A DNA stretch of 64,000 nt, from assembly GCA_022841915.1 (NCBI GenBank), contig JALHQN010000001.1, positions 310,001 through 374,000 on the forward strand. The letters are read 5' to 3'. The notes beneath the pieces were generated by a model. The model saw only the letters and a list, made by a program, of their open reading frames with translations, searched no databases and was not told where the DNA came from. The translations under genes were made by a program, and so were the position numbers. The stretch comes from Burkholderiales bacterium (GTDB lineage Bacteria > Pseudomonadota > Gammaproteobacteria > Burkholderiales > WYBJ01). Shown here piece by piece: positions 48,484 through 64,000 of the stretch (within the stretch, counting starts at the first letter, position 1; every line of letters starts with the position of its first letter).

Positions 48484-48692
48484 TCACTTGACTCCTTTCT
48501 CGGAGTCACCCCCAACGCTTGCCGGGGTCCAGCATAGAACGAGCGCAGATAGTCGGCAAGATCGCATTCCAGGAACACCCAGCACTTGCCGACCTTGGCG
48601 CCGGGCGCCAAGCCGAGCTTCGCGCGGCGTCGCAGCTCCTCCGGGTGGATGTGCAGGAACGCCGCGGCTTCGGCGAGCGAGAGCGTCTTCAT
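48360..48692 (-). CDS. Excisionase-like small HTH protein
   Basis: 110 residues. MerR/excisionase-type HTH at 3-52: LSLAEAAAFLHIHPEELRRR, then KVGKCWVFLECDLADYLRS, the usual wing and anchor helix of phage-related Xis or AlpA-like proteins. The C-terminal half is polar and low in structure, and the last 124 bases overlap the integrase gene in another frame. Its ATG overlaps the stop of the upstream HTH gene (ATGA). Likely directs integrase toward excision. Confidence 0.8.
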   Translation of the reverse strand: MKTLSLAEAAAFLHIHPEELRRRAKLGLAPGAKVGKCWVFLECDLADYLRSFYAGPRQALGVTPRKESSECHSSNAVVRGGSISPHQAVSALDALLAQPAKSKRKSSTTS

Positions 48693-49249
48693 GGCCGATC
48701 TCGCTTCTCGTCGGCATCCGTGGGCGGCGGGATGAGGGCCTCATGTCGTTTTCTCCGGGCTTGAGCCAAAAACTCCTGGCAGTCGGCGTGACGGCGCGCA
48801 ATCTGCGTGACGGTTTGTGCCGACGCCGCTGCGGTGTTGTTTGTAGAAGTTCCTGTAGAGTTAGTCCGAACCTCGTTCGGTACCTCGGCGTCGTCAGGTT
48901 CGGGACCTCGTGCATGAGGTTCGGTACCTCGTCCCGAACGACGTTCGGGACCTCGCATCTGTGATGGGATGACGGCTTGGTAGTGGTACTGCGCCCAGTC
49001 GCGACCCTCGCGACGTGGCTTTCGAGTGATCCAACCCGCATCGACCGCCCTCTGCAGGTGGATGCCGACGGCGCGCTCCGACAGCCCCGTCTCTTCCGCG
49101 AGACAGCGTTCCGAGGGATAAGCCCGACTGCCGTCGTCCGCCATGTGCAGGCTCAAGGTGATCAGCACATGGCGGGTCGTGGGCGAGTCAGGCCCCTGAT
49201 CGGAAGCAATCAACCAGCGCCAGACGAAGAGAAGCTTTCGGGCGGGCAT
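48689..49249 (-). CDS. HTH protein of the element, replication- or conversion-type
   Basis: 186 residues. Winged HTH at about 15-85: HVLITLSLHMADDGSRAYPS, ERCLAEETGLSERAVGIHLQ, RAVDAGWITRKPRREGRDWA, the pattern of phage and plasmid helix-turn-helix replication proteins. The C-terminal half is low complexity (repeats of RGTEP/RGPEP), encoded by four copies of a 13-base repeat that look like iterons. Followed without gap by the excisionase-like gene. Function inferred from context: replication of the excised element or transcriptional control. Confidence 0.75.
   Translation of the reverse strand: MPARKLLFVWRWLIASDQGPDSPTTRHVLITLSLHMADDGSRAYPSERCLAEETGLSERAVGIHLQRAVDAGWITRKPRREGRDWAQYHYQAVIPSQMRGPERRSGRGTEPHARGPEPDDAEVPNEVRTNSTGTSTNNTAAASAQTVTQIARRHADCQEFLAQARRKRHEALIPPPTDADEKRDRP
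48875..48955. repeat. Iteron-like repeats inside the HTH gene
   Basis: GTTCGGTACCTCG at 48875-48887 and 48919-48931, GTTCGGGACCTCG at 48898-48910 and 48943-48955, spaced 21-24 bases. A degenerate copy (GTCCGAACCTCG) lies at 48864-48875 and an inverted piece at 48930-48939. Spacing near two helical turns suits a replication-initiator binding array. Confidence 0.75.
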
Positions 49250-49373
49250 GGTCAGCGGACCGACAAGGGCACCGACGAGGCGGCAGACGTTGGAAGGCAG
49301 ATCGAAGACATGAGTGGCGAGATCGAGTGAATTGCCTCAAGTGTGTCGGCTTCCCAAACAAGTTGCTTGCTAT

Positions 49374-49424
49374 AACCCCCCCGTCGGACAGGGGGGGTTG
49401 GCGAGAAAAAGCCCCCTTTCTCGC
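49374..49424. terminator. Two tandem perfect hairpins
   Basis: AACCCCCCC / GGGGGGGTT (9 bp, 8-base loop, 49374-49399) directly followed by GCGAGAAA / TTTCTCGC (8 bp, 8-base loop, 49401-49424). They lie between the recombinase and HTH genes, both read leftward, and could terminate transcription or be recombination or RNA structures. Confidence 0.5.
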
Positions 49425-49490
49425 GATGAATGCCCTCATCCCCCAGGTTTTCTGCAGAGATGGCGTTCACCATTCAATCCCTCGCTCGAC

Positions 49491-50357
49491 TTACCGACCT
49501 AGATAAACCGCAGTGACTTGTTCGCGCTCGTGACCAAGTTCGCCGCTGACGACGAGCCGCGCTTCGCGATCGAGCGCTCGCTGCTCGGGGGTGAGCGCTT
49601 TCGAGGTCGGGCCGCCGGCGGCCGGCGCCTTCCAACCCGTGATCTCCAAATAGCGAGCTTGCGCATAGGCGTGCCGGTGACCATGGACGCGGTGGATGCC
49701 AGCGCCACTGCACTGGTGTTTGAACCGCTGCAGCTGATCGATGAAGCGAAGCTCCCGAGGGATCAGGCTGCCGCCCTGCGCGAGGCGTCGGGCTTCGTTC
49801 AGCACGTGCCGCTGCTCGGTTGTGCGGATCGGAATCTCGCGCTCCCGGCCGCCTTTGCACCAGCTCGCCTTGAGGACGAGCTTGTCGCCGCGGTCGGCCC
49901 AGCTCGGCTGGAGCTTGATCGATTCCGCACGCCGCAGCCCGAAGGCGGCCTGCAGCTTCAGTGAGACCGCTGTGTACGGATCGGTGATGCGGCCAAGCTC
50001 GGTCGGCGTCAGCGTGCGAGCCCTGCTGACACTGCTAACAAGCTGCCGGTCAGGGATGCCGTAGGTCTTGTTGCTTTCAGCGATGATGCCGGCCTTGCCG
50101 ATCTTCTCCGCCCACCATCGCAGCTGGACCATCCGGTTCTTGATCGTGCCCGGGTTGAGTCCCTCCGTCTGCCAGCGTTGTGACAGAGCGTCGACATGCT
50201 TGGGCTTGAGCCCGCCGGCCCGCAGATCCCGAAAGCCGGATTCGTGCAGTTGGGTGGCGGTGAGCTGCAGGATGCGCAGACGATCGGCCTGGGTCGCGTA
50301 GCTGCCATCTCGATTGCGGTAACACAGCTGCTTCAATTCGAAGTTCAGTGTCCTCAT
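49491..50357 (-). CDS. Second tyrosine recombinase (integrase-domain protein)
   Basis: 288 residues of the short phage-integrase type with a SAM-like N-terminal domain (about 20-90) and a catalytic domain: FGLRRAESIKLQPSW (first Arg), KGGREREIPI, HRVHGHRHAYAQARY (His/Arg box), and the C-terminal ELGHEREQVTAVYLGR with the Tyr. It is clearly different from the tRNA-adjacent integrase. Such proteins are common cargo of proteobacterial genomic islands. ATG at 50357; upstream region holds no convincing gene. Confidence 0.88.
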   Translation of the reverse strand: MRTLNFELKQLCYRNRDGSYATQADRLRILQLTATQLHESGFRDLRAGGLKPKHVDALSQRWQTEGLNPGTIKNRMVQLRWWAEKIGKAGIIAESNKTYGIPDRQLVSSVSRARTLTPTELGRITDPYTAVSLKLQAAFGLRRAESIKLQPSWADRGDKLVLKASWCKGGREREIPIRTTEQRHVLNEARRLAQGGSLIPRELRFIDQLQRFKHQCSGAGIHRVHGHRHAYAQARYLEITGWKAPAAGGPTSKALTPEQRALDREARLVVSGELGHEREQVTAVYLGR

Positions 50358-52221
50358 TGCGTTGCCTCGTTCGTTGCCGTCTCGCTGGGTGTGCGCACTG
50401 ACAGGTCAGTGTTGTTGTCCGCCTCGCCGGCGTTGAACCGGTCGAGAACCACGAGGGACAGCGGGCCACACCACGAGCCCGTTCGTGCAGAGGGGTAAGT
50501 CTTGCCAGCGCTGCACGCGCTTTGGATGGCACCGGGGGCGCGACGCAGAGCACCGCCACCCGCCGAAGACCTGTGTTCCCAGGCCCAAGGAGCGCCGAAC
50601 GGACGCAAGATCCCCAAACAGACGGGGATGGAACACCACGCGGCATTGCACCGCACATCACAGCAACGCCCCGAACGGGACGAGCGACAAGGCGACCGTT
50701 GAACGGTCGCATCACGACCACAGCAGGGGGAGCTTCGATAGAGCGCCGGAAAGGCGCTCATAGGCACGAACTCGCACAGGCTTCGATGTGCCGAAACATC
50801 ACGAAGCACTGCTGCGCAGATCGCGCGACATCACAAGAGCGGAAGGCGTCGGACGTACATGGACTGATGCGGACATCAGCACCACAACGCCGATCGACTT
50901 CCGCCTACGGGGGGGGGCTACTCGGCGAAACCGAGCGCCCGCCCTAGGCTCATCACCATCGAATCGCACAGCTCGCAGTAACACGAGCCTGTGCGCTATG
51001 CTCATCACTTAATCGCCAAACCCTTGGGGCCGCCGGCTCGCAGGCGATGTGGCCGACTTCTGGGCGGTGCGTAACGTGCACCATTCCGGGCTGACACAGC
51101 CAGCGAAATCACTGCGCCAAGCGTAGCACATCGATAGAACCGAGACATACCCTTATGGCATTCTCAATGTCCGACATGATCGGAGAAACTCAGTTCCAAG
51201 CTTTTCGAGAAAATCTTGTGATGCGCTGCACCAGCGTCATGTCGGAGAACGATGCACCAGGCATCGCTCGTCACTGAGGGCTCGTCACTCAGGATATTTG
51301 GGCCGGTCACTTGCGCCAGGACCACGAAAATCGAACGCCGGTGCAGCCTTGCGCGCATCGTCACTGGCAGCTGAAGCCGACCAGTCACGATGCGCGGTTG
51401 GCGCAAAATATCCGAATTGCAATGTTGGCACAGCGAGTCATGCCCGTCGAAGTAGCTGTTGGCGCACGGCACGCAAGGAGTGTTCGCGCTGCGGACAGCT
51501 CGACCCGTCTCGCCTGCTGCGTATGCACGGGCGACGTTGTGCTGCCCCCCCGGCAACTCCTAAGTGGTACGCTGCACGCAATTGCACGACGTGGTCAGCG
51601 CTCGGCTCACAATCCGAGTTTAAGAACGACGTTGTAAACGGCGTTTACAGGCGACCGTAATAGTTCCGAAGAGACCGGCGCCCGGTGTTCCGGGCAACCA
51701 CGAGCCTGCGCGAGCGATCGCATGGAGGCGCCACGGTACCGACGGTTTTCTGGGAGACGACGCATGTCGTCAGGGCACGCGGCAGCGCATCGCCGCGGAG
51801 CTTGAACTCGATGGGTGTCTGGCGCGATTCGTTCGCAGCCACACGCGAAGACCGGGACGCGATTCCACCGACTCGCACGCATACCACCGTATCGCGTCGT
51901 AACAAGCGAGGAGATCATGCGACCACTTGACTACGGCCGGCTAATGGGTGACCCCTTTTTTGTTTTCTAGGTCACGTGCCGCCCCAATGGCTATACCACG
52001 CTGGTCATTACACTCGCAGTCCGGACAAATGCCGCGTATCGACGCTGATGATCTGCATCGTGTCTGCCTCCAATTTGCACTCTTTGTCGACCGCCGTCCT
52101 AAGGCGGCGAAGCAGGCCGCTGGGAGACGACGGCTGCTCCTCCGCATTCTTGCCGGCCGTTGATCACCGGTAGATTGCATGAAGAGCCGGTGCGCAAGAG
52201 GACCATGCGCGCGTCCTCGGT
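50358..52221. other. About 1.9 kb without a confident gene
   Basis: Only short frames without family features. It contains three hairpins with short or GAAA-type loops (GCGACCGTT/AACGGTCGC at 50692-50710, GAGCGCC/GGCGCTC at 50741-50759, and CTCGG/CCGAG near 50931), a tandem 14-base repeat GCTCGTCACTSAGG (51266-51293), an inverted pair GGATATTT...AAATATCC (51292-51299 and 51406-51413), and a perfect palindrome TGTAAAC-GGC-GTTTACA at 51633-51649. A minus-strand frame at 51164-51556 has two CxxC pairs like a zinc ribbon but no other support. Probably degraded element DNA or a structured non-coding region. Confidence 0.5.
51633..51649. promoter_or_regulatory. Perfect palindrome, possible operator
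   Basis: TGTAAAC-GGC-GTTTACA, 7-bp arms and 3-base centre, in the gene-poor region. No gene starts next to it that I can support. Confidence 0.35.
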
Positions 52222-55200
52222 TTAGAAGGATGCACGCAAGCCCACCTCGATCGCCCGCCCGGCTTCTGGAGCGTAGTTGCGCAGGAAGGACACTGAGTTT
52301 CGGATCTTGTTGTCCAGCAGGTTACGTCCCTGCAAAAAAACGACCATCTCGAAAGGTCGCGCTTCCCAGCGATACTCGAAGAATGCGTTCAGTTGGTCGT
52401 AGCCCGCGGTTTCGGTCTCGTTCACACCCGGCCTGGTCTGCGCATCGGCTCGGGTGTGCCGTATGGAAGCCGTCCAGGTTTCGCCGATGAACGCCAACTC
52501 CAGTCCGTACCTTCGCGGAGGAAGCCGCGGCACGTCGGAGCCGTCGTCGAGGCGCGCACGCAGGTAATCCATGAACGGCTTGATCTCGAGCAATCCGAAC
52601 GGCACGTCCAACCTCATCACGAGTTGGGCCTCGAACCCCTTGAAACGCGCATCATCCTGCTCGTAGCGCTGCACCGGCAGGCACTCATCCAAGCGCACAC
52701 ACCGGACACGGATCTGGCCCACGTCCGGATCGTAGAACAGCCCGGCATTGCGCTGATAGATGTAGTCCCTGATGCGATAGTCGAACACGTTGACTTTGCC
52801 CGCGTACCTGCCGCGGTCGACGCTGAAGCCCAGGTCCGCGCCCTCGACGGTTTCCGTATTCAGCCGATTGTTGCCGACGTCGAACGTGCGGGTCGCCAAG
52901 TGAGGCCCGAGTGCATACAACTCCTGCACGTCGGGATTGCGCTGGGCCCGCGAGAGCGTCAGCGTGGCACTGGATCGCGCTGCGAACTGTAGGCTTGCTA
53001 TAGCCGAGTAGCTCCTGCTTGTGTGCTCTGTATCGGGTAGGACGACGGAGGTGCCGAACACGGTACGCTGCGGCTCCGGTCGCATCCGCTGATGCTCGCT
53101 GCGCGCACCGAGCTCGAACGAAAACGGGTCGAGGTTCAAGCGCTGCGTCAGGTAGCCGGCATGAGAACGAATCGCCGATTCGGGCACGAACGCCTCGGCC
53201 CCGAGCGCGGAGAAGTCGCGCTTGATCAACTGGCCCCCGAGAGTACCGGAAAGGTTCTTGCCCAGCCGATGGCTCAGCTCGGCACGTCCTTCCCAGACCT
53301 GGTTTCGAAAAGTAGTCTGGACGACGTTGTTGTCTATTTCCGCGTGCTCGTAATCGACGTGGGCAGCGCGCAGCTCGAACCGCTCGATCGGCCCGTCGAA
53401 GCGAAACGCGCCCTTGACGTCCTGACGCTGCTGCTTCATGTCGATCCGAACCGCATCCGCTCCTGGCGGTGCTCCGGGCACATGGCTGTGCGAATGCGCG
53501 CCCGGTGGAATCCCATAGTTGTTCCGCAGTTCGCCAACCGCGAAACCAAGCATGCTACGATCGTCGAGCAGCGATGCCCCTACGTTGATGCCATGGCTGC
53601 GCGCATCCGTATTGGCGACGTAACCGCACGTATTGCTCGCGTTGAACAACCCGAACTGGCGGACGATAGCCGCCTCGTCGATGGCACACCCAGGGATGAC
53701 TGTGTCATTTCGGCTGCGGCGGAAGCCGTCGACATGCAACGCGACCAGTCCTCTTCCGGTGTCGAGCTTGAATGCCTGCGCTCTCTCGTTTGCGTTGCTG
53801 TTGATGCGAACTTCGGCTGCTCCCGATACACCATTCTTGGGTATGCGCTCCGGTATGCGGCCGTCGATGACTTCCACCGCGCCGCCGATGGCTGCCCCCC
53901 CGTAGCGAATCGTTGCCGGGCCGCGCATGACACGCACCTCTTCGGCGAGCAAGGGCTCGAGCGTAATCGCGTGATCCGGACTGACGCTGGAGGCATCGTG
54001 CGATCCAAGGCCGTCGAGCAGGATACGCACGCGCGGCCCCGTGAAGCCGCGGATCACCGGCAAGCCGACGCTGGGTCCGAAAGAGGCGTTGGCGACTCCC
54101 AATTCGTCTTGCAAGGTCGCGCCGAGCGTCGAACCTTTCTTCTGCCGCAGCTCCTCGCCCTGCAGACGGGTTTCGGGACGTGCATTCGAGTCGGCAGACC
54201 CCTCGCGCTTGACCTCCACCTTGACTTCCGGCAGCTCGACCGGTTCGCTCGCTGCAATGAGCACCGCCGCGCCTTTCTTCTGCTGTAACTGTTCGCCGCG
54301 CAAGCGGATGTCCGGACGAGGATCCGAGTTGACCGAGCCTTGGCGCTTGGCTTCAGGCTCGACCGCAAGCAGTTTGACGGGTTCGCTCGCTGCAACGAGC
54401 AACGTCGTCCCCTGCTTCTGCCGCGACGTTTCGCCCTGCAGACCAGTTTCGGGACGCGCACCCGAGTCAGCGGGGACCTCGCGCGCGCCTTTGACCGTGA
54501 CCACAGGCGACGCGACGGGCGCGCTCGCTTCAGCAAGCAAAGCCGACGCCCCGTGCGAATGCGGCCGGAGACCCCAGAAAGTCGAGACTTTCTCCGTTCC
54601 GACATGCTCCCATTCATACCGTAGGCCCATCCCGATCGAGTAGAGCTTCTGGGCCGAGTTGAACTCGCTCGCAACGTTCGCATAGAGTTGCAGCCCGCGA
54701 GAGGCGCGGACACTCAGGCCGAGACCGATGATCGCGCTATCGCGCGGCACGTCGACGTTCGGGACCGAGAAAGTCGGGCTGTTGGGGTCCCCTGCGAACC
54801 TGGCGCTCAGGCTGCCCTGCGAGGCGAACTCGTGAGCCCACGCTATGCGGGCTTCCAGCGTGCCTTGCATGCCACCGCGGCTCAAGTCCCGCGCAGCCTT
54901 GATACCCAGGGTCGAGCGCAAGAAGTTCATCGTCCGCCCAGGCACGGCGAGATTCAGCGCCCCGGCGCCCGATTCCGTGTAAGCGTCGTCGCGCTGGTGC
55001 GACCATTGCAGGGAAGCGCCCGGCTCCAGGCGCGTCGTATCGCCAAAGGTATAGCCCGCTTCGATATGCGCTGTAGCAATCGTTCCGCCGTACGACGCAG
55101 ATGCGGTTCGCCGCAATGTCCCGATGGTCACCGCGCGAGTCGCCTCCGTGGAGGTATCGGCGAGGCCCGCCAACGCGTCGATCCGCAGCGCACCGGTGCG

Positions 55201-58200
55201 GTAGCGGCCATACAAGGCGAGCTGGCGCATCTCTGCGTCGACGCGGCTCCCCGGTACGTCCTGCTTAATCTCGGGCTTCGAATAGGCGGCGAGCCCTCCG
55301 AATCGCATTTGCTCATTGATGCGCCGGTCATACCCGGCGATGACTCCAGAGAAGTCGAATCTTGCGAGACCGGCTCCCGGCGTCCCGTCCGCTCGGCCGC
55401 GTCCGCCGTAGCCACGAAGCCACAACCCGTCTCGCGGCTCCGGCTCGCCGCTCGCCATGCCGGCCCCCGCGAACGAGTGCGCATAGGCGGGATTGGCGTC
55501 CGACGCGATCCAGGGATCGAGCGATCCGAAGCCGGCAAGTGCCATGTTGCCCGCTCGCCCGCCCGCCCCACCATCGGCGGCGCCGAGCCGCGCGACGACC
55601 TGCTGCCAGAGCGCACGCTGACTGGACTGCTGTGCCGTCTCGATCGACGCGCGTCCGACCCCGCCGATCGAATCGAAAGCTGCCCGTGCACCTTCCGGAG
55701 TAAGCCCGTCCACCGCGCCGATCACCGTTCGAGCATCCGGGGAGTTGAGCCTGGAGAGCGCACCGAGCGCGGTCGCCACGCCCGCCTGCGCGGGAGTACG
55801 GGCGACCGATTGATAGGACGCGTCGGTTCGCTCGAGCGTGAGATAGACGTGTCGCGGATCGTAGTGCAGCGTCGGACGGAGAAACGCGAGATTGCTGTTC
55901 GCGTTGTCGAAGCGACCGCTGATCTCCTCCGTCGCCGAGAGGACGATATGGCGCCCCTTCAGCGGATACTCGCCATCTCGCGCGACGACCTCCAATGCCG
56001 CTCCGTCGACAGTGGCGCTACGCACGGCGAGATGGTCTGCGCCGGCGGACGGGTCCGCATTCACCCTGAAGGTCGAGCCGGGGGCGAGATCGAGGTGACC
56101 TGCGATCGTGCCCGATCCCGCAAACGAAGCACCGCTCACCACGCGCACCGAACTCGCCAGCGAGCCTCGGAACGCGAGCATACCTCCTGCGACCGTCGTT
56201 GGCCCCGAGTACGTTTGCTGGCCGGTCAACTGCAGCGTGCCGGCGCCGATCTTGTCGAGCGATCCGGGCCCCGTGATGTTGCCGTTGATGGCAAACGTGG
56301 TATTCGCACCGGTATCGAGCACCGCACCGGTGTCGCCGAGGGCAATACTGCGCGCGGTGGCAATGTCGGCAATCGTACGCAGCGTGCCGCCGTTGATGAT
56401 GACGCTGCCACCCTCGGCGCCGAGGTTTCGATCGTCGGCGATGGTGAGCGGACCGCTTAGCCGGGTGCCGCCCGAGTAGGAATTGATTCCCGAGAGGGTC
56501 AGGTTGCCCGGCCCACTCTTGAGCAGCATGCCGGTTCCGCTGACGGTACCGGCAAAGGTGCCGTCAGCCGCCTGATCGAAAGCGAGGCCGCCGTTGTTGA
56601 CGATCGTGCCCTGTATGCTGAGGTGATCGCCGATCAGCATACCTTCCTCGATCACGGTTCCGCCGGTATACGTGTTGGTGCCTCCGAGCCGCAACGCGCC
56701 GTCGCCGCGCTTGACGAGACGCCCGCTTCCCGAAATGGTGCCGCCGTAGGTCTCCAGCGGAGACAGGGCAAGCGATTCCGAGATGACGAGAGTTCCCTCG
56801 TTGACGACCTGCGAGCCGAGGCTCCGCGCGCGAGCGATCAACGTGCCCTCGGCGATTCTGGTCGTACCGGCGTGCCCGGTGGCACCGGTGAGATCGAGCG
56901 TACCGGTGCCGACCTTGCTGAAAAGACCCGTGCCCTCGATCGCGCCGGCAAAGGTCGTGCTGCTCTGATCGGAGCCCACGGTGAGCCCGTTGGCGCCGAG
57001 CCGGATCGCGCCGACGCCGCCGATGGAACCGGCACTGCGCGCACCGTCCGCCGCACTCAAGTCGAACACCGCGCCGCCCTCGATACGCAGCGGCCCGTTC
57101 GGGTAGAGATTGCCGGCGCTGACCAATGCCAACGTGCCGCCCGTGATGGTCGTACCCCCGGTATAGGTGTTGATGTTGGTAAGCGACAAGACGGCGTTGC
57201 CCGATTTGCGCATGGCTCCTGTGCCGCTCAGGACGTGTCCATACGTTGCATCGACCGCCTGCGCGAACTCTACGGTGCCGTGGTTCGTAATCGCCGTCTG
57301 CAGCGACACGGCCGCCCCCCTGAGCGTTCCCTGACTCACCAGCGGTGCGACGACCCAGGTATTGGGTCCGGTCAGCGTGAGGATTCCTTCGCCGGTCTTC
57401 TCCAGGCGTGACGTCGCCGTGACCACTCCCGAGATGCCGAGATCGAAGCCGCTGGTGTCGATTGCTGCAGCGTCGGGACCGATGTTGAAGTTGCGCCCAG
57501 TCGTGAAGGAATTCGTGGCCTGAAGGGTCAACAGACCAAGGCTCACGGGAGAGCCGAGGGGCGCCAGTTCGCTGTCTGAGCCCGCCGTGAAGCGAGGAAA
57601 CAGGGGGAACACGACTACCGGGGGCGGCGGGGTCGGCACCACGGGCCCCGGCGGGCTGCTCGGCGCATCGATGCGTGAAAGAAAGGCGGACTGGTAGTCG
57701 GCCGTGTTCAATCCGTTGTTGAAAAGAACGTAGAACGGTGCAGAGTCCCTGTACTTTCCGGTCAGGTCGAAAAGTTGCAGGCCAAGCAGGTACGCGCCGA
57801 CCGGTTGGGTTCCCGCACCACCGGCCGACTCGATGAACCAGTTCAGGTGGGTATGCAACGAGCCGTCCGGATATGCTTGGTCGACCAGCTTGGTCGCCGG
57901 CCCGACGACGCCGGTGCCCGTGATCAGGGTCGGGGTCGAGTAATACTGGTACAGGAGCAGTGCTGCCGGGTCGTTGAATACGAGCGCGTTGATCGCGACT
58001 TCCGAAGGTACCGTGCCTTCGATCCGCACCGACGTCCCGGTTGCGGCAGCCCCCCAGCTCCGGCTTTGCGGCGTCCAGTGCAGCAGCGTTTCGAGCGGGC
58101 GGTAGAAGAGACGCTCGCCCGACAGCAGCGTCCCGGGAAATGCTTGAAACCCCGGGTCGTCGGTCGAGTACGGTCCGCCCGGCAGGTCACGGAAGTTGGC

Positions 58201-58419
58201 CGGCCAGATGGGCCGACCCGTCGCGGAGTCGATCGGGGACCTGCCTTGGATAAGAAGGTTCTGGTCGCCGAAGAAGCGCACACCGAGCGGACTGCCGAGA
58301 ACCGGCCCACCCGGCGTAAAAACCTCGACGTCGAAGTGCAGGCTCTGCCCGCGAGATGCCGTGCATAACGCGAAGGTCGCGGAGCACACCAGATATCCGA
58401 TCCTTCTCACGAACCGCAT
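52222..58419 (-). CDS. Autotransporter fused to ZnuD-like TonB-dependent receptor
   Basis: 2,065 residues in one frame. Start at 58419 (AAGGCGAGG upstream) gives a signal peptide ending CTASRGQS. Order: a secreted domain at 26-255 (GERLFYRPLETLLHW, HTHLNWFIES, APFYVLFNNGLNTADY) shared with the divergent PEP-CTERM gene; a proline linker; an autotransporter passenger with repeated GGTTITGG-type beta-helix units (about 300-900); an autotransporter barrel at about 990-1268 ending MGLRYEW; three tandem 46-residue repeats of a TonB-box/plug-start segment (about 1290-1430); then plug (VGLPVIRGFTGPRVRIL, VMRGPATIRYGGAAIGG) and a 22-strand-type barrel ending AIEVGLRASF. The receptor part is very like zinc receptor ZnuD, including a His-rich loop (GAHSHSHVPG, near residue 1643). 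Two outer-membrane barrels in one chain are highly unusual. Confidence 0.9.
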   Translation of the reverse strand: MRFVRRIGYLVCSATFALCTASRGQSLHFDVEVFTPGGPVLGSPLGVRFFGDQNLLIQGRSPIDSATGRPIWPANFRDLPGGPYSTDDPGFQAFPGTLLSGERLFYRPLETLLHWTPQSRSWGAAATGTSVRIEGTVPSEVAINALVFNDPAALLLYQYYSTPTLITGTGVVGPATKLVDQAYPDGSLHTHLNWFIESAGGAGTQPVGAYLLGLQLFDLTGKYRDSAPFYVLFNNGLNTADYQSAFLSRIDAPSSPPGPVVPTPPPPVVVFPLFPRFTAGSDSELAPLGSPVSLGLLTLQATNSFTTGRNFNIGPDAAAIDTSGFDLGISGVVTATSRLEKTGEGILTLTGPNTWVVAPLVSQGTLRGAAVSLQTAITNHGTVEFAQAVDATYGHVLSGTGAMRKSGNAVLSLTNINTYTGGTTITGGTLALVSAGNLYPNGPLRIEGGAVFDLSAADGARSAGSIGGVGAIRLGANGLTVGSDQSSTTFAGAIEGTGLFSKVGTGTLDLTGATGHAGTTRIAEGTLIARARSLGSQVVNEGTLVISESLALSPLETYGGTISGSGRLVKRGDGALRLGGTNTYTGGTVIEEGMLIGDHLSIQGTIVNNGGLAFDQAADGTFAGTVSGTGMLLKSGPGNLTLSGINSYSGGTRLSGPLTIADDRNLGAEGGSVIINGGTLRTIADIATARSIALGDTGAVLDTGANTTFAINGNITGPGSLDKIGAGTLQLTGQQTYSGPTTVAGGMLAFRGSLASSVRVVSGASFAGSGTIAGHLDLAPGSTFRVNADPSAGADHLAVRSATVDGAALEVVARDGEYPLKGRHIVLSATEEISGRFDNANSNLAFLRPTLHYDPRHVYLTLERTDASYQSVARTPAQAGVATALGALSRLNSPDARTVIGAVDGLTPEGARAAFDSIGGVGRASIETAQQSSQRALWQQVVARLGAADGGAGGRAGNMALAGFGSLDPWIASDANPAYAHSFAGAGMASGEPEPRDGLWLRGYGGRGRADGTPGAGLARFDFSGVIAGYDRRINEQMRFGGLAAYSKPEIKQDVPGSRVDAEMRQLALYGRYRTGALRIDALAGLADTSTEATRAVTIGTLRRTASASYGGTIATAHIEAGYTFGDTTRLEPGASLQWSHQRDDAYTESGAGALNLAVPGRTMNFLRSTLGIKAARDLSRGGMQGTLEARIAWAHEFASQGSLSARFAGDPNSPTFSVPNVDVPRDSAIIGLGLSVRASRGLQLYANVASEFNSAQKLYSIGMGLRYEWEHVGTEKVSTFWGLRPHSHGASALLAEASAPVASPVVTVKGAREVPADSGARPETGLQGETSRQKQGTTLLVAASEPVKLLAVEPEAKRQGSVNSDPRPDIRLRGEQLQQKKGAAVLIAASEPVELPEVKVEVKREGSADSNARPETRLQGEELRQKKGSTLGATLQDELGVANASFGPSVGLPVIRGFTGPRVRILLDGLGSHDASSVSPDHAITLEPLLAEEVRVMRGPATIRYGGAAIGGAVEVIDGRIPERIPKNGVSGAAEVRINSNANERAQAFKLDTGRGLVALHVDGFRRSRNDTVIPGCAIDEAAIVRQFGLFNASNTCGYVANTDARSHGINVGASLLDDRSMLGFAVGELRNNYGIPPGAHSHSHVPGAPPGADAVRIDMKQQRQDVKGAFRFDGPIERFELRAAHVDYEHAEIDNNVVQTTFRNQVWEGRAELSHRLGKNLSGTLGGQLIKRDFSALGAEAFVPESAIRSHAGYLTQRLNLDPFSFELGARSEHQRMRPEPQRTVFGTSVVLPDTEHTSRSYSAIASLQFAARSSATLTLSRAQRNPDVQELYALGPHLATRTFDVGNNRLNTETVEGADLGFSVDRGRYAGKVNVFDYRIRDYIYQRNAGLFYDPDVGQIRVRCVRLDECLPVQRYEQDDARFKGFEAQLVMRLDVPFGLLEIKPFMDYLRARLDDGSDVPRLPPRRYGLELAFIGETWTASIRHTRADAQTRPGVNETETAGYDQLNAFFEYRWEARPFEMVVFLQGRNLLDNKIRNSVSFLRNYAPEAGRAIEVGLRASF
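54130..54546 (-). repeat. Three tandem copies of the TonB-box/plug-start segment
   Basis: Protein units of about 46 residues, each with AASEPV-like start, a TonB-box-like VxV stretch (VVTVKG, VEPEAK, VKVEVK), RPE/RPD, and LQGExLxQKKG. Only the third is joined to the real plug domain. The DNA copies are diverged, so the duplication is not recent. Confidence 0.85.
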
Positions 58420-58797
58420 ACAGCCTCGCCTTGGCCCGCTTTGAAGGCGCTTCGGTGCGCAAAGTCGCGGGCTCGACCATTGGGAATTCAACGAGATCCG
58501 GATCCGCGACCACAGGGAGGGCTCGCGCCGAGGCCTTGGAGGGACACGATGCGCGGCGTTGTCACGACGCTTCTTGCGACCAGCGCCTAGTGTAAGTATG
58601 TTGCAACAGCAGGCGGTCAGGCTCATCCCTCGAACCGGATGGTCATCGATGCAGAGATCTCATCTCCGGGCCTTGCAGTGTAGCGGGCTCGACTATATGA
58701 TGCAACTGCGATGCATTTGAGGCATTGCCCAGTTCCTCGCAGGCCGGTCGCATCACGGTTCGCGGTGTTCCCCACGATTGTCAGGAGAAGGCCAGTC
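58420..58797. promoter_or_regulatory. Divergent control region of the zinc-type genes
   Basis: 378 bases without a gene. Perfect palindrome TGTTGCAACA at 58599-58608, resembling the core of proteobacterial Zur sites, and an inverted pair ATGCA-N7-TGCAT at 58700-58716; the word GATGCA occurs three times (58648, 58699, 58710). Both genes start here, so these are candidate operators for a shared regulator. Confidence 0.45.
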
Positions 58798-59541
58798 ATG
58801 TTGAAGTCAATTCGTTCCATCTTGGCGTCCGCCGCGATCGCGCTGGGCGTACTTGCGTCGCCTGCCGCATTCGCGCAGCACTCAGACATCGAAGTGGCAG
58901 TTGTGAGCGGCAAGATCGTGGCCGATCCTCTGGGTGAAGCCGCGACCGCATTGAACGGCTACAAACTTTTCGAGGCCGATTTCGGGGATTTCGCGTTGGG
59001 GCCCAACGGCACGAAGAATCCGGGATTCGCGGATGCGCACGATCTCCCGAGCAGCGGCTTTGCTGGCGGGAATGTCCTCTATATCCGGCCCTTGGAGACC
59101 CTGAGCTTCTGGGACGGAGCAATGTGGACGGCGCCGGCGTCTGCCGGCACAACCCTCTCGATCAAGGACGCGCTCGGCGCCTTCCTGACTATCAACAGTG
59201 CCGGCGCGACCGTGCCGGCCGGTGGCGGCCTCATCGATGAGTTCGATTCCGGTGGCGGTCTGCACCAGCATGTCGATTTCATGATCAATAGCGGGGCACC
59301 GACCGGCGCCTACCGTCTGACGGCCCAATTGTGGGCGACCGAAACGTATCTCGGCAGTCCGATCTACACGGACAGCGACCCGTTCTACCTCGTGTTCAAT
59401 CGCGGATTGAGCACGGACGCCTTCGAGGCATCGGTGACCGCGTTGATGGTTCCCGAAGCCAGCACCTATGCGCTGATGCTGGCCGGTCTGGGGGTGGTAC
59501 TAACCGGCGTGGCACGTCGCCGCCTCGCGGTCCGCCGCTAG
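58798..59541 (+). CDS. PEP-CTERM protein, All3515-like (Zur-linked family)
   Basis: 247 residues, ATG with AGGAG upstream. Signal peptide ends SPAAFAQ; the C-terminus VPEASTYALMLAGLGVVLTG followed by RRR is a PEP-CTERM sorting signal for exosortase. The body (NVLYIRPLETLSFW, LHQHVDFMINSG, SDPFYLVFNRGLSTDAFE) is the same domain as the N-terminus of the giant divergent receptor and resembles the All3515 family whose cyanobacterial founder is Zur-repressed. His residues in the LHQHVDF motif could bind metal. Likely an extracellular zinc-related protein. Confidence 0.82.
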   Translation: MLKSIRSILASAAIALGVLASPAAFAQHSDIEVAVVSGKIVADPLGEAATALNGYKLFEADFGDFALGPNGTKNPGFADAHDLPSSGFAGGNVLYIRPLETLSFWDGAMWTAPASAGTTLSIKDALGAFLTINSAGATVPAGGGLIDEFDSGGGLHQHVDFMINSGAPTGAYRLTAQLWATETYLGSPIYTDSDPFYLVFNRGLSTDAFEASVTALMVPEASTYALMLAGLGVVLTGVARRRLAVRR

Positions 59542-59568
59542 CCGCGCCATCCCTCCATCGAAGACCCA

Positions 59569-59612
59569 CCGGCCGTAACCCCGACCTCGGGGTTACGGCC
59601 GGTTGCGTTATT
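59569..59612 (+). terminator. Strong terminator after the PEP-CTERM gene
   Basis: CCGGCCGTAACCCCG, loop ACCT, CGGGGTTACGGCCGG: a perfect 15-bp stem followed by TTGCGTTATT. Placed 27 bases after the stop codon. Confidence 0.85.
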
Positions 59613-60034
59613 GCATGCGCCCGTCGCCCTTGCCTGCGGTCCTGCTGTACGCCGTGTTCACCCTTTCGGGGGCGGCGGGGCTCGGCTACCAGTTTGTACG
59701 TGATGATGCTTGGCGGTTTCTGCTTCCTGACATTTATAGCCGGTCGCCGAAAACGACGGACCAAGGTGTCCCCGCTGTACAGGCGCTGATCGCCGCGATG
59801 CAGGTGTAGGTCTAAAGCCCCGGTCGTCATACGCTTCATGCCGAGCGTGGGTCGCGTTGATCTGTCCCAGTGCGCCGCCGGGCGCCAGCGCGTTTCCACG
59901 CAGCTCGACCCGCACCGGTCAATATAATTGACGCCCACGCCGCAATCCTAGTCATAGCAGATCTTTGAGACTTGTGTTCGGCGGTTCAGCGCCAGGACGA
60001 TCAATACCCATGTCGCGTGAATGCGGCAGGCATC
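59603..60034. other. Remainder of the gene-poor gap before the HNH genes
   Basis: About 430 bases holding the small spermidine-synthase-like remnant and a TATAAT at 59923-59928 without a good -35. Nothing else supported. Confidence 0.5.
59615..59809 (+). pseudogene. Remnant of a spermidine-synthase-like membrane protein
   Basis: 65 codons. LLYAVFTLSGAAGLGYQFV is the first membrane helix typical of fused MFS/spermidine-synthase proteins, but the frame ends soon after with unrelated residues. Probably a leftover of a deleted gene. Confidence 0.35.
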
Positions 60035-60961
60035 TCAGGCAGCCGCCTTGAAACGTTCATATCGCTGCGCGAGCCGATCCCGATCTGGTCGGTCCTTAAT
60101 GCGGCCGGGTAGATGGATCATTCCTCCATGGAGCCGCTTTAGCGCTTCGAGCATAGGCCCGTCGTTCTGTACGAGCAGACGCTCTGAAACGTGCAGCCTG
60201 TAGTCCGGGTCGATGCCGATCAGATGGGCATCGAATGCCGCATGATGGATCTTGGAGAGCGGAATGCCATTGGCCACGACCGGTTGTCCGAGCTTCTCAT
60301 CCTTGTCGGCGATGATGTGCGCGGCGTCGAGCAACAGCGGTTCCGGCAACCCTGAAAGCGCACAGCGGCCGTTGTAGGCGGTGATGACGGCTTCGCGAAA
60401 CGATGCCTGATGCAGGCGTTGTTTCACCGCTCGCAGCGCGTAGCGGCGCTCGATGGCATTCTCTGGGGGCGCGATCGCATCCTGATCCGGCACGCCGAAC
60501 GCCACGCGAGCCTTCAATCCTCGGGGATCCCAACCGGAAATGAACGCTGGCAACATGGCTTGGTAGCGTCCAGGCGCAATGCCGAGGAAGTAGATGATCG
60601 GCACTCGGTTTTCAAATGCTTCCCGTAGCCAGCGGTTATCGGCTGCGTCCGGGTTCTGCCCCATGAAGGCATAGTCCACCGATTCGTCGCCCTCGAAGAT
60701 CTGCCGATGCACTTCGCGCTGGTCGTCGTACCAAACCTTCGCGCCCGGTTTCGGAAATACGGTCTTGATCGAAAGCAGGAACCGCATCTGCTGTGGCTTG
60801 AAGATTCCACGGTGCGGGTTAACCAGCGGCAGGCGTTCGCCCCGAAACATGAATCCCGGCTTCAACTCGGTCGCTGTCAGGTGATCGTGGATCTCGCCGA
60901 GTCGTCGCACCTCCTCGAAGGCCGCCATGCGCATCGAGGTGTCCAGATCGTCACTCGTCAT
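60035..60961 (-). CDS. HNH endonuclease domain protein
   Basis: 308 residues. N-terminal domain of about 180 residues (FRGERLPLVNPHRGIFKPQQ, KVWYDDQREVHRQIFEGDE, YFLGIAPGRYQAM), then an HNH nuclease: YNGRCALSGLPEP, LLLDAAHIIADKDEKLGQ (His pair position), NGIPLSKIHHAAFDAHLIG. This is the architecture of stand-alone restriction endonucleases often next to restriction-modification genes. Last gene of a minus-strand set headed by hsdR outside the window. Confidence 0.88.
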   Translation of the reverse strand: MTSDDLDTSMRMAAFEEVRRLGEIHDHLTATELKPGFMFRGERLPLVNPHRGIFKPQQMRFLLSIKTVFPKPGAKVWYDDQREVHRQIFEGDESVDYAFMGQNPDAADNRWLREAFENRVPIIYFLGIAPGRYQAMLPAFISGWDPRGLKARVAFGVPDQDAIAPPENAIERRYALRAVKQRLHQASFREAVITAYNGRCALSGLPEPLLLDAAHIIADKDEKLGQPVVANGIPLSKIHHAAFDAHLIGIDPDYRLHVSERLLVQNDGPMLEALKRLHGGMIHLPGRIKDRPDRDRLAQRYERFKAAA

Positions 60962-60973
60962 GATCTATCGTCG

Positions 60974-61892
60974 TCATGCCCGGAAGCGGCTCTCGTTATG
61001 CCACGCCAAGGCTTCTGGGTCAGGCCTTCGCGTAGTGTCCGAAGGTTCGTCAATCTTGTGACCTTGCAGCGCGTAGTAATGCTTGCCGTTGCTGAACTCT
61101 TCCTTGATCCGACGGCTCACCTCGAAATGCAGATCCGGCGTCACCGTCACATAGCCCGCGTCGAAAAGGCTATGGATATCGCGCCTGAGCAGCAGTCCGT
61201 TCCGCGCTTCGTGCTCACCGCCTTCGGCGTAGGGGCGGATATGTGCGGCCTCGAGCGCGGGCAGCGTGCGCTCTTGAGTCACGGCGCAGCGGCGACTGTA
61301 CGTATCCGTGACGAGCACGCGGAATGCGCCTTGTCCCAGCCGCGGACGAATCAACTGTGGCTCCCCATAGCGTGGCTGCATTTGCGCAATAACCGGGAAC
61401 TCCGAGCGGCTCAACCGATCATTCACCGCGTCCCACAGAGAGTCCCTCTGCATCGCCTGTGGTGTAGGTCTTGAAGGAAACGATATTCCGTGACCAACTC
61501 GGCGGAACGGGGATCCAGTCTGTTTCGTCGAAGAAGAAGGGCTGCGTGAGGATGCGACAGCCGATTTCGAAATCACTCCTGTCCGTCGGCGGGACTTTGC
61601 GGTAGCGGGCGATCCGAGTGCGCATTTCCTGTGCCGACCCTGCGCCATTCGCCTCGCCAAACGCCTCCCAGGCCAGGGAACAGGGCATCGCATTCGCGTA
61701 GGCGAAGATGCCACCGCCGACGATGACGTTGCGTGGTGAGTGCAGCTTGAATAGGAAAAGTTCGCCGGGCTGAAGTGCGCGAAAGTTTGCACCGGACGGC
61801 GCCCAGAAATTGACCTCGGCGAGGTTCCGCTGCTGGCGCAACATGTCGAACCAATCGTCATCGGTGACGGCAACGACGAGGTTGATCGGCAT
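60974..61892 (-). pseudogene. HNH endonuclease gene with a frameshift
   Basis: Two frames together make one protein of about 305 residues. The first (start 61892, INLVVAVTDDDWFDMLRQQR to TGDAEGL) ends at 61419 in a TGA after SVGRGE; the reading continues in another frame from about 61440 (SLWDAVNDRLSRSEFP) to the HNH part (RRCAVTQERTLPALEAAHIR, LLRRDIHSLFDAGYVTV) and its stop at 60974. A one-base difference within 61435-61450 restores it. Either a recent inactivating shift or a sequencing error; both halves are otherwise intact. Confidence 0.75.
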
Positions 61893-62011
61893 CCAGCTAT
61901 CCCGTCTCTTGGTCTGGTTGCTCGGCTTCGGTGGACGCAATCCTCGGGGTCTTGGTCATAGGCACCCAGTGGGCAAGTGACACGCACATACCCGGCGTCC
62001 AATCCTTGTCG

Positions 62012-64000
62012 CTATCCATACACCCCCGCATTTCGCTCAGGGTAACTCTCGTACACATGCTCGAATACCGCTGAGCACTTCTGCCGATACATCTCCGGCG
62101 CATACGCGCGCGGAAGGCCTTCGTCGAGGGCGTCCTCGATCGTCAGTTTCAACGCAGAGCGCGCTGCGGATTTCTGTCGCCAGTTGAGCACGAGCAATTG
62201 CCCCAACCGTGACAGCAGGTCCTTGGCAACCTTCTTGACCTCATCGCGTTCCTCGGCACTCAGTTCCGGCGCCGGCCGCGTCAGGATGTCGAAGATCACA
62301 AGCTCTTCCTCAGTAAGGTTCTCGCGGACGTGACGAGCCTCCTCGTCGTTCAAGCTGTTCGACAGCCTGAGCAGGTCCTCGAACAGTTGCTCGATGCTCC
62401 GGCTACCGGCGTTGTAGCTTTCGATCAGTGCCTCGAACTTCTCTGCGAAGTCCGCGCGGGTTCGGTTAAGGCGCACGAGCTTGTCCAGCTTGGCGCGGAT
62501 CGCCGCCTTGAGTGCTTCGAGGTCCGTGTTTTTGTGCTTCGATTCCTTGAAGCGCTGCGCGAGGGCCTCGAAGTTGATCTTGGAGAGGTCGATGGCTGGA
62601 GGCCCAGCACTGCGGATCGTCAGGCCCGTGATGGATTCGTCCAGCAGGCCGCCGATCTGTCCCATGATGGTCGAGATATCCGGCGGGTTGGGGTTGAGTT
62701 TTGCGCGGATGGCAGCGGCCAGCGTCGCGATGCCGGCCACGCGCTGTGCGAACTCGAGCGCGGACGGATCGGGTTTGACGGCCCGGTAGAGGGTGCCGAC
62801 CAATTGCTCGTGGCCGAAGAAATCGCGCCTCAGCGACTCGGGTGAGATCAGCGCGTCGATTGCGTCCTTGATTGCTTCCAGTCGCTGCAAGTCGCCGAGC
62901 GGTAAGGCCTCGATCGCGGCGAGGTTCACGCCGTGGCTCGCGCAGAACGCCGTGGCGGCATCGACCGCTTCCCGCAGAGCAACGCCGAGCTGTGCCTTGT
63001 CCCTGACCGGGCTCGCGCCACCCTTGCCTGCGCCGTAGATGGCCAGCGCCTTCTCCAGCGAAGCGAACACGTTGGCGTAATCGACGATCACACCGCTGTG
63101 CTTGCCGGGGAAGACGCGGTTGGCGCGTGCGATGGTCTGCATCAGCGTGTGGTTGCGCATCGGCTTGTCGAGATACACGGTCGAGCAGCTCGGCGCATCG
63201 AAACCGGTGAGCCACATCGCGCAGACGAAGACCAGCCGCAGCGGGTCTTCTGTATCCTTGAACTTCTCGTCGAGACCGGGCTGCGATTCGTACATGCGCC
63301 GCCGATGAGGCTCGATGTCGAGCCCCAGCCTCTTCATCTGCTCGATCTCGTTTTGACCCGGCGAGACAATAACGGCCATGTCGGTCGTCGTCAGCACGTC
63401 GAGCCGAGCCTTGAGCGCTGCCCTGCGTGCATCACGTGCGGCCTGTGCCTGCAACGCTTCGCCGCCGCGCGTCTGGTAGGCGAGTACGCCCAACTCCTTT
63501 TGCACGCTCGCTGTCTCTTCCACCCAGCGGGCCTTCACCTTGTCATGCATACGTAGCGCCGTGGCCTTGTCGATGGAGACCACCATCGCCTTGCCGACGA
63601 AGCCCCGGCTTAGGAAGTGGTGCACGATGTCCTGAGCCACCGTCTCCAGGCGGTCGTCGCGGGTGATCAAGTGGTACTGCCTTCCCAGCACCTTCTCCAG
63701 CTTGGCCTCCTGTTCGTCATCGAGGCCCGCGTCCTCGATCAGGCGGTAGAGGTCATCGTTCAGGTCGGGATTAACCAGCTCAAGCTCGGGCGTACGGTTC
63801 TCGTAGAACAGCGGCACTGTGGCGCCGTCCTCGACCGACTGCTGGAAGTCGTAGATCGATACGTAGTCGCCGAAGACCTCCTTGGTGCGTTCCTCGCCGG
63901 CGATGAGGGGTGTGCCGGTGAACGCCAGGAACGTCGCCTTCGGCATGGCTGCGCGCATATTGAGCGCCAGCGTGTCGTACTGGCTGCGGTGAGCCTCGTC
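62012..64000 (-). CDS. hsdR: Type I restriction enzyme R subunit (HsdR), C-terminal portion
   Basis: The frame is open to the window edge, so the N-terminal nuclease and the first helicase motifs are outside. The first visible residues are DEAH, helicase motif II, followed by ATFLAFTGTPLIAGEE (motif III) and the second RecA domain (VFVCAMWLTGFDAPSCSTVY, HTLMQTIARANRVFPGKHSG, motifs V and VI). The helical C-terminus (PEMYRQKCSAVFEHVYESYP) contacts the modification subunits. Translocates DNA with ATP and cuts unmodified DNA. hsdM and hsdS are presumably upstream, beyond 64,000. Confidence 0.93.
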   Translation of the reverse strand, partial: DEAHRSQYDTLALNMRAAMPKATFLAFTGTPLIAGEERTKEVFGDYVSIYDFQQSVEDGATVPLFYENRTPELELVNPDLNDDLYRLIEDAGLDDEQEAKLEKVLGRQYHLITRDDRLETVAQDIVHHFLSRGFVGKAMVVSIDKATALRMHDKVKARWVEETASVQKELGVLAYQTRGGEALQAQAARDARRAALKARLDVLTTTDMAVIVSPGQNEIEQMKRLGLDIEPHRRRMYESQPGLDEKFKDTEDPLRLVFVCAMWLTGFDAPSCSTVYLDKPMRNHTLMQTIARANRVFPGKHSGVIVDYANVFASLEKALAIYGAGKGGASPVRDKAQLGVALREAVDAATAFCASHGVNLAAIEALPLGDLQRLEAIKDAIDALISPESLRRDFFGHEQLVGTLYRAVKPDPSALEFAQRVAGIATLAAAIRAKLNPNPPDISTIMGQIGGLLDESITGLTIRSAGPPAIDLSKINFEALAQRFKESKHKNTDLEALKAAIRAKLDKLVRLNRTRADFAEKFEALIESYNAGSRSIEQLFEDLLRLSNSLNDEEARHVRENLTEEELVIFDILTRPAPELSAEERDEVKKVAKDLLSRLGQLLVLNWRQKSAARSALKLTIEDALDEGLPRAYAPEMYRQKCSAVFEHVYESYPERNAGVYG

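Follow-up and report, generated by a model that had tools for sequence, protein, structure and literature searches.

An open frame joining a ZepA-like domain, an autotransporter and a ZnuD-type receptor in a Burkholderiales bacterium

Can one gene encode both an autotransporter, with its own secretion barrel, and a complete metal receptor of the outer membrane, and what would such a join do? The question is raised by a 64,000-nucleotide stretch of a Burkholderiales bacterium (GenBank assembly GCA_022841915.1, contig JALHQN010000001.1, positions 310,001 to 374,000; hereafter the window), in which an earlier note, made from the letters alone, had described a single open frame running through an autotransporter and a TonB-dependent zinc receptor. 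We confirmed that an autotransporter and a complete ZnuD-type receptor are indeed fused in one frame. The earlier reading overlooked a third module, a ZepA-like domain at amino acids (aa) ~96-320 of the frame, as well as a threefold repeat at aa 1363-1500 in the linker between the two barrels. On balance we lean towards reading the product as a zinc-capture domain that is shown by its own autotransporter and tethered to its own TonB receptor, a single chain with two outer-membrane barrels.

The frame lies on the minus strand, which the note had not named; a plus-strand reading of the same coordinates holds several stops, and that strand was therefore rejected as the coding one. A base-composition model at the local G+C puts the chance of 2,134 stop-free codons at ~3e-23 to 3e-28, and the genome search returned the same region as a stop-free open frame of 2145 aa. 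Translation probably starts at Met70 (window 58419), the first residue of the signal peptide, and from there the frame has the 2,065 codons or so that had been claimed for it. Matches to Pfam follow one another in the order PATR, Autotransporter barrel, Plug and TonB barrel, and together with NCBIfam they bear out the succession that the note had described after the signal peptide, namely an autotransporter passenger and its barrel and then a plug and a second barrel, all in one frame. The mature chain has a predicted mass of 214.6 kDa.

In the autotransporter part, the PATR family matched 5 stretches (Pfam, E 3.5e-35, 120.1 bits against a gathering score of 27) and the barrel family PF03797 matched aa 1068-1318 (Pfam, E 2.7e-57, 194.9 bits against a gathering score of 26). 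The nearest among the genes compared is a free-standing autotransporter gene of the same genus, in genome G002, which carries neither a ZepA-like domain nor a receptor; it is ~48-51% identical to the autotransporter part, the homology of the frame to it begins at aa ~358, and the two barrels alone are 49% identical (265 bits). The motif MGLRYEW (aa 1333-1339, reaching window 54610) is where an autotransporter usually stops, as the note had said: the homologues in G002 and in a second genus relative, G001, stop there with ...GAGMRYRW. The fused barrel is not C-terminal, with 795 residues following aa 1339. When the barrel alone was compared with PDB by sequence, no match was found at E 0.01. 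Five support rows in the alignment used for modelling this barrel are probably misaligned (19-25% identity, G002 standing at 19% there against 49% by blastp), and the identities from that alignment were left unused. The G001 gene itself (L037 1089-3462) is split over several frames; a short repeat occurs inside it and nearby.

The receptor part contains a plug (aa 1484-1583, E 1.5e-13) and a TonB barrel (aa 1765-2103, E 4.1e-28) by Pfam. Its nearest solved relative by sequence is meningococcal ZnuD (E 4e-60). In the structural model most residues exceed 80 in predicted local distance difference test score (pLDDT), with a dip near model residues 663-669, and 22 long strands were counted by eye; the top fold match of this model is ZnuD 4rdr (E 1.8e-45), and 4rvw reaches a template modelling score of 0.91 on the target. 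Pfam finds two barrels in one chain, and the confident model is that of the second barrel only. The ligands of the buried zinc in meningococcal ZnuD are given as Asp99, His100, Glu340 and His499 (PMC4557270), and all four are identical in the fused receptor (D1551, H1552, E1763 and H1909), the ZnuD numbering in our alignment having been set with a 14-residue offset by the loop-3 cluster of that paper. In addition, a His-rich segment, GAHSHSHVPG, lies in the part that corresponds to the His-rich loop 3 of the meningococcal protein.

These data also bear on whether the same architecture serves another cargo, such as copper, nickel, heme, a zinc-bearing protein or another metal-ligand complex, instead of free zinc. 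Assignment of TonB receptors by similarity errs easily (PMC3814407), the heme and copper receptors PhuR, OprC and ChuA come after ZnuD among the fold matches, and one site of the motif described below precedes a metallophore-type receptor (named by eye), but the zinc ligands are kept at four out of four positions, ZnuD provides the top matches, and the unfused copy of the receptor in the same genome adjoins a FUR-family regulator and two COG0523-type proteins (names also by eye). We regard a different cargo as unlikely.

The linker between the barrels is 161 residues long and charged. Its residues 1363-1500 are three diverged 46-residue copies of the segment that opens the mature unfused ZnuD; the copies share 63-72% DNA identity with one another, and the third is the closest to the N-terminus of unfused ZnuD (63% protein identity). 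No second signal peptide was seen in the linker when its translation and in-frame start codons were inspected by eye. Because the linker is made mostly of copies of the ZnuD N-terminus and shows no such peptide, a hidden stop separating two genes was judged unlikely. We read the join as a lineage-specific fusion rather than an error, given that the receptor half lacks its own signal peptide and follows three diverged copies of its TonB-box segment. The possibility that a base error or a misassembly conceals a stop or joins two genes has in its favour that the fusion is seen in one assembly only and that 12 codons in aa 1339-1373 are one substitution away from a stop, which is an ordinary number. 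On the other hand, no signal peptide is visible in the receptor half, whereas the unfused copy has one, the repeated linker is found in neither parent, and the locus sits inside an 878-kb contig with a continuous G+C content at third codon positions (0.72-0.81 per 150-codon block along the frame, and 0.68-0.80 per 25-codon block across the barrel junction), so that we consider an artefact very improbable. The earlier note had counted separate genes in relatives, with the fusion in this assembly only, against a genuine join; half of this was found, since the fusion appears in this assembly only and separate genes are carried by related genomes and by the fusion's own genome as well.

We next turn to the N-terminal domain. 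Another contig of the same genome, C23, encodes a secreted protein that ends in a PEP-CTERM-like tail and shares 67-68% identity with the domain, and blastp aligned the fusion N-terminus also with the PEP-CTERM protein of the divergent neighbour gene (28% identity, E 7e-19), the signal peptide of the frame pairing with the signal-peptide region of that protein. The HxH motif is kept in 24 of the 24 ZepA-like sequences aligned, with T, Q, E or S as its middle residue, and all 16 alignment rows that reach that far have a His where the mature protein begins (counted by eye). AlphaFold2 predicted a beta-rich fold fairly confidently (pLDDT 84.3, predicted template modelling score 0.83). A second fold comparison returned pilin-like and Ig-like sandwiches at Z ≤5.3, which is the uninformative range of the tool. 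NCBIfam and Pfam, applied to the ZepA-like relatives, found a PEP-CTERM-type tail, another tail or nothing, and no match to the domain itself. The divergent gene reaches the Pfam cut-off for PEP-CTERM and the C23 copy has such a tail by eye, with a sub-cut-off NCBIfam match; the fusion has a signal peptide (by eye) and no PEP-CTERM by Pfam or NCBIfam. ZepA (All3515) is a zinc-binding exoprotein repressed by Zur (PMC10957091), and it is because of its gene company and its secretion that we call the domain ZepA-like. Classing it as ZepA proper was rejected, as the published zinc motif is unmatched.

Contig C23 carries, within ~10 kb, tonB-exbB-exbD, a ZnuD gene, two ZepA-like genes, two COG0523-type proteins and a FUR-family regulator, where the names tonB, exbB, exbD, COG0523 and FUR come from reading the translations by eye. 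The unfused ZnuD encoded there, next to an unfused ZepA-like gene, has its own signal peptide and is 69% identical to the fused receptor; in the tree the two are sisters (support 100/99) with branch lengths of 0.20 and 0.25. Ratios of nonsynonymous to synonymous substitution (dN/dS) between the fused and C23 copies come to ~0.15 in the receptor and 0.12 in the ZepA-like domain; dS is close to saturation in both comparisons. The simplest history suggested by these sequences would be that a duplicated zepA-like/znuD pair was joined onto both ends of a resident autotransporter.

It could also be argued that the fusion is natural but a poorly functional accident of recombination, unassembled or decaying, and that the C23 copy does the work. 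The fusion is a singleton, intact unfused copies persist in the same genome and integrase genes lie nearby, as would suit such an accident. We nevertheless think it quite unlikely: 2,134 codons have remained without a stop or a frameshift, the zinc ligands are intact, the divergence of the linker repeats implies that the join is probably not recent, and the branches of the fused and unfused receptors are alike in length.

How widely is this architecture distributed? A search with the whole fusion gave matches in 61 of 200 genomes of the order and in 47 of 274 genomes of the class, the own genome being included in both samples, and in these genomes a match across both barrels was found in the own genome only. 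With a fragment consisting of barrel, linker and plug, 142 of 398 genomes of the phylum matched, and among the matches listed only that in the own genome spans both barrels; 592 plasmid records matched the fragment, and among the matches listed none had a single place covering 80% of it. Both lists show part of the genomes or records only, but a match across both barrels would have stood at their head. Open frames of 1,000-1,200 codons hold some of the receptor matches (e.g. in G170, G498, G653 and G667), and the match there is to the receptor part only. These searches detect only fusions in which both halves are similar to those of the window, and one with a very different autotransporter would escape them; the genome samples of the whole-fusion, fragment and domain searches overlap partly.

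The ZepA-like domain by itself is rare: in the order 13 of 399 genomes have it and in the class 5 of 369, both figures including the own genome. In each of the 16 other genomes that have the domain, at least one ZepA-like match has a ZnuD-type match no more than ~1.5 kb away; counted per match the figure is 30 of 33, the exceptions being loci L096, L099 and L110. When the receptor was used as bait with ~1.5 kb of flank, a ZepA-like neighbour was present at 7 of the 10 ZnuD loci with at least 40% identity (L021, L031 and L041 had none) and at 0 of the 13 loci below 40%. A scan of named genomes with the domain yielded 14 loci, a set that is biased for counting the association since it was picked by the domain: 10 are methanotroph records (Methylomonas, Methylicorpusculum, Methylomicrobium, Methylococcaceae), the other 4 come from three gammaproteobacterial bins and one Phycisphaerae bin, and a ZnuD-type match precedes the domain at 11 of the 14. 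The tails of the ZepA-like proteins vary; that at L045 has PKD domains and a sub-cut-off dockerin match, and similar tails were recognized by eye in other Methylomonas rows. In a Methylococcaceae bin, two tandem ZnuD-type receptors, with 38% and 45% identity to the receptor of the fusion, stand before a ZepA-like gene (L051 3318-7781).

In two genomes of one genus, G269 and G398, a separate gene unites a ZepA-like domain with a PATR autotransporter and shares one base of its ATG with the stop of the ZnuD gene before it (TGATG). The barrel of the window scores 265 bits with G002 against 55 bits with G398, and its ZepA-like domain scores 307 bits with C23 against 114 bits with G398; the nearest relative of the G398 domain outside its genus, of those compared, is at L053 (229 bits). 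Since the scores pair the window with G002 and C23, and the G398 domain with L053, the joining of ZepA-like domain and autotransporter would most simply have arisen twice, independently.

The main rival explanation supposes cleavage of the chain in the linker or the passenger, which would give an ordinary autotransporter and an ordinary ZnuD at 1:1, so that the fusion couples their production only. A charged, repeat-built linker of 161 residues is a likely target of a protease, and the equivalent genes of G269 and G398, which are probably co-translated across their one-base overlap, represent dosage coupling without fusion. The repeats have, however, stayed in frame despite their divergence in DNA, which argues that the linker is used as such, and we rate cleavage as improbable, though it deserves to be taken seriously.

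Is the fusion gene controlled like a zinc gene? From a comparison of six promoter regions a palindrome emerged, TGCAACNNNNWTGCATYT, with 5 exact copies in the 6.2 Mb of the genome; at ≤1 mismatch there are 7 copies against 1 for a reversed control, and the copies expected in the window number 0.03. One exact site is in the gap between the fusion gene and the divergent gene, three are in C23 promoter regions, including that of the FUR-family gene, and one is on contig C9, ~75 bp before a group of genes for a receptor, a PepSY protein and an alkaline-phosphatase-like protein. The motif was built from four of the five sites, which are hence non-independent; the C9 site is independent. To judge from the gene context, the five palindromes probably mark a Zur regulon that includes the fusion gene. 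No exact site was found at the COG0523 gene after zur or at the third ZepA-like gene. The latter, a PEP-CTERM gene on contig C1 (L010 3114-3998, minus strand, G000:C1 ~69.1-70.0 kb), has a degraded copy of the palindrome upstream (score 14.8) and no ZnuD-type match within 1.5 kb. On C9, the group under the exact copy (L068 2670-4900, G000:C9:231169 on) comprises a metallophore-type TonB receptor, a PepSY-like membrane protein and an alkaline-phosphatase-like secreted protein, all named by eye, and could possibly be a second metal-uptake operon. Divergent from tonB under a motif copy lies a gene for a secreted protein with a PEP-CTERM-like tail and no ZepA-like match (L008 4082-5038, minus strand). 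A weaker Zur-like site near the first ATG of the frame (58588-58608) scored 10.6, under unrelated matches in 126 kb, and was dropped.

How might such a chain work? An autotransporter barrel has its C-terminus in the periplasm, and a TonB receptor has its N-terminus, the plug end, on the same side; such a topology is therefore possible, the linker can remain in the periplasm, and TonB could reach it. If the protein indeed ties a zinc-capture domain, shown at the surface by the autotransporter of the same chain, to the receptor that follows, the single N-terminal signal peptide would direct the chain to the periplasm and the beta-barrel assembly machinery (BAM) would insert both barrels. As their families suggest, the autotransporter barrel and the PATR passenger would lift the ZepA-like domain to the surface on a beta-helical stalk, which would replace the PEP-CTERM tail of the unfused homologue. 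The domain, with its HxH and N-terminal His, may then capture zinc or a zinc-bearing ligand and present it to the ZnuD-type receptor, where the four ligands would bind zinc and TonB, engaging a TonB-box-like segment of the repeated linker, would power the import as it does in this family; Zur would probably repress expression at high zinc. For the zinc-scavenging surface domain that the earlier note had supposed to be tied to its transporter, the ZepA-like N-terminus is thus a plausible candidate in the same chain, and we infer its function, as we do zinc binding, hand-off and the assembly of a double barrel in the fused protein. A more specific version is put forward tentatively, with somewhat less than even confidence: a self-displaying scavenger covalently bound to its importer, in which a new ZnuD-partner domain would stand over the pore on a stalk, zinc would be passed within the chain and the threefold TonB-box linker would keep the receptor engaged.

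Several observations weigh against this picture. The triple fusion is confined to one genome among those searched. A structure prediction of both barrels failed to fold the autotransporter half, where pLDDT is <50. A PDB fold search with the model of the ZepA-like domain gave no match at E 0.001 or better, and the published ZepA zinc motif, H-X2-9-H-F/Y-H, has no match anywhere in the fused frame. In the own genome two of the five ZepA-like matches, in addition to the fusion, have no unfused ZnuD nearby. The receptor half, which the note had called very like ZnuD, does match the NCBIfam ZnuD family NF038289 over aa 1463-2134 (E 1.6e-98), but its 331.2 bits are under the curated cut-off of 950, for which reason we name it ZnuD-type and do not make it a member of that family. 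Linker repeats 1 and 2 are under weak constraint (dN/dS 0.71), and the ratios between fused and C23 copies cannot date selection after the fusion, because dS is near saturation and some of the divergence predates the fusion. Finally, the Zur-box reading is drawn from the metal-gene context, and the full-strength site lies ~280 bp from Met70, closer to the divergent gene.

Table 1. Parts of the fused frame and related features. Positions are those of the window unless a locus is named.
Feature	Position	Strand	Basis or remark
Whole open frame, 2134 codons	52222..58626	-	ORF list; probable start Met70 at 58419
Sec-type signal peptide, aa 70-95	58342..58419	-	by eye from translation; only one noticed in frame
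ZepA-like domain, aa 96-320, invariant HxH (His164/His166 of aligned piece)	57667..58341	-	homology to unfused C23 protein, AlphaFold2 model
Proline-rich joint from ZepA-like domain to passenger, aa 321-345	57592..57666	-	translation
Passenger with PATR beta-strand repeats, aa 346-1060	55447..57591	-	Pfam PF12951, NCBIfam TIGR02601
Autotransporter beta-barrel, aa 1068-1339, ending in MGLRYEW	54610..55425	-	Pfam PF03797
Inter-barrel linker, aa 1340-1500, predicted periplasmic; last 17 residues overlap Pfam plug match	54127..54609	-	translation, in-frame start codons
Linker repeat 1, 46 aa, TonB-box-like ...SPVVTVKG... (by eye)	54403..54540	-	
Linker repeat 2, 46 aa, degenerate TonB-box position	54265..54402	-	
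Linker repeat 3, 46 aa, TonB-box-like ...LPEVKVEV... (by eye)	54127..54264	-	
ZnuD-type TonB-dependent receptor, plug and barrel, aa 1484-2134	52225..54177	-	Pfam, NCBIfam, model, fold match
Zur-box-like palindrome TGCAACTGCGATGCATTT	58701..58718	+	between fusion gene and divergent ZepA-like gene
Divergent ZepA-like gene with PEP-CTERM signal	58798..59541	+	start by eye at signal peptide; ORF listed from 58711
ZepA-like-PATR autotransporter gene, G398	L059 3766-6978		
ZepA-like-PATR autotransporter gene, G269	L060 2435-5896	-	

As for the rest of the neighbourhood, two integrase-type genes (Phage_integrase and Integrase_1; window 47437-50357) lie 2-5 kb downstream of the fusion and suggest the edge of a mobile element. 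On the minus strand at window 60035-63958 there are two adjacent HNH_2 endonuclease-type genes and a gene matching parts of a type I restriction R-subunit. No RNA element reached the gathering threshold in window 50000-60000.

What would the fusion mean? According to the authors of the ZepA work, the way in which it delivers zinc is unknown, and they suggest that the metal is passed to a receptor of the outer membrane (PMC10957091); a fusion of this kind is what their proposal would predict. A gene that fuses the presumed donor domain to a ZnuD-type receptor would be natural evidence that the two work together, testable in one protein, and if the reading is true, the ZepA-like domain would be the dedicated surface partner of ZnuD. 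For outer-membrane biogenesis it would be a natural test case, in which the C-terminal assembly signal of one barrel sits inside the chain, ahead of a second and larger one; the autotransporter barrel would then fold despite the 795 residues and the second barrel behind its signal. The ZepA-like domain is held in various ways, by a PEP-CTERM tail, a PKD-type tail, a separate autotransporter or a receptor-fused autotransporter, and this variety suggests repeated evolution towards a position at the surface near ZnuD.

Compared with known systems, the receptor half shares with ZnuD (4rdr, 4rdt, 4rvw; PMC4557270) the plug and barrel, the four zinc ligands and a His-rich segment, and differs in having no signal peptide of its own, an N-terminal segment present three times, and an autotransporter and a ZepA-like domain in front. 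With classical type Va autotransporters the fusion shares PATR repeats, the PF03797 barrel, the terminal ...YxW and a free-standing homologue in the genus, whereas its barrel is internal and a ZepA-like domain heads its passenger. Outer-membrane proteins with several barrels are a described class, of which GfcD is an example (PMC11494523, which cites Solan et al. 2021); as is predicted for the fusion, it has more than one barrel per chain, joined via the periplasm, but it joins barrels of 12 and 13 strands for polysaccharide, whereas the fusion joins a secretion barrel to a TonB receptor. The earlier note had known of no described natural fusion of these two classes, and our literature search, which was thin in subscription journals and from which we do not claim absence from print, found no autotransporter-TonB receptor fusion; multi-barrel proteins as such are already known. 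Like ZepA, the fusion family is secreted, has PEP-CTERM in its unfused relatives and lies near zur, COG0523 and TonB receptor genes; it differs by its invariant HxH in place of the published zinc motif and is likened to ZepA by context, and the main text of the ZepA paper (PMC10957091) never uses the word autotransporter. The G269/G398 pair comes closest in composition, with the identical three modules, and differs in that the receptor is separate, the modules are spread over two genes in reverse order and the joining was apparently independent. ZnuD, autotransporters and ZepA-type exoproteins are each known, and what appears new is their joining in one chain.

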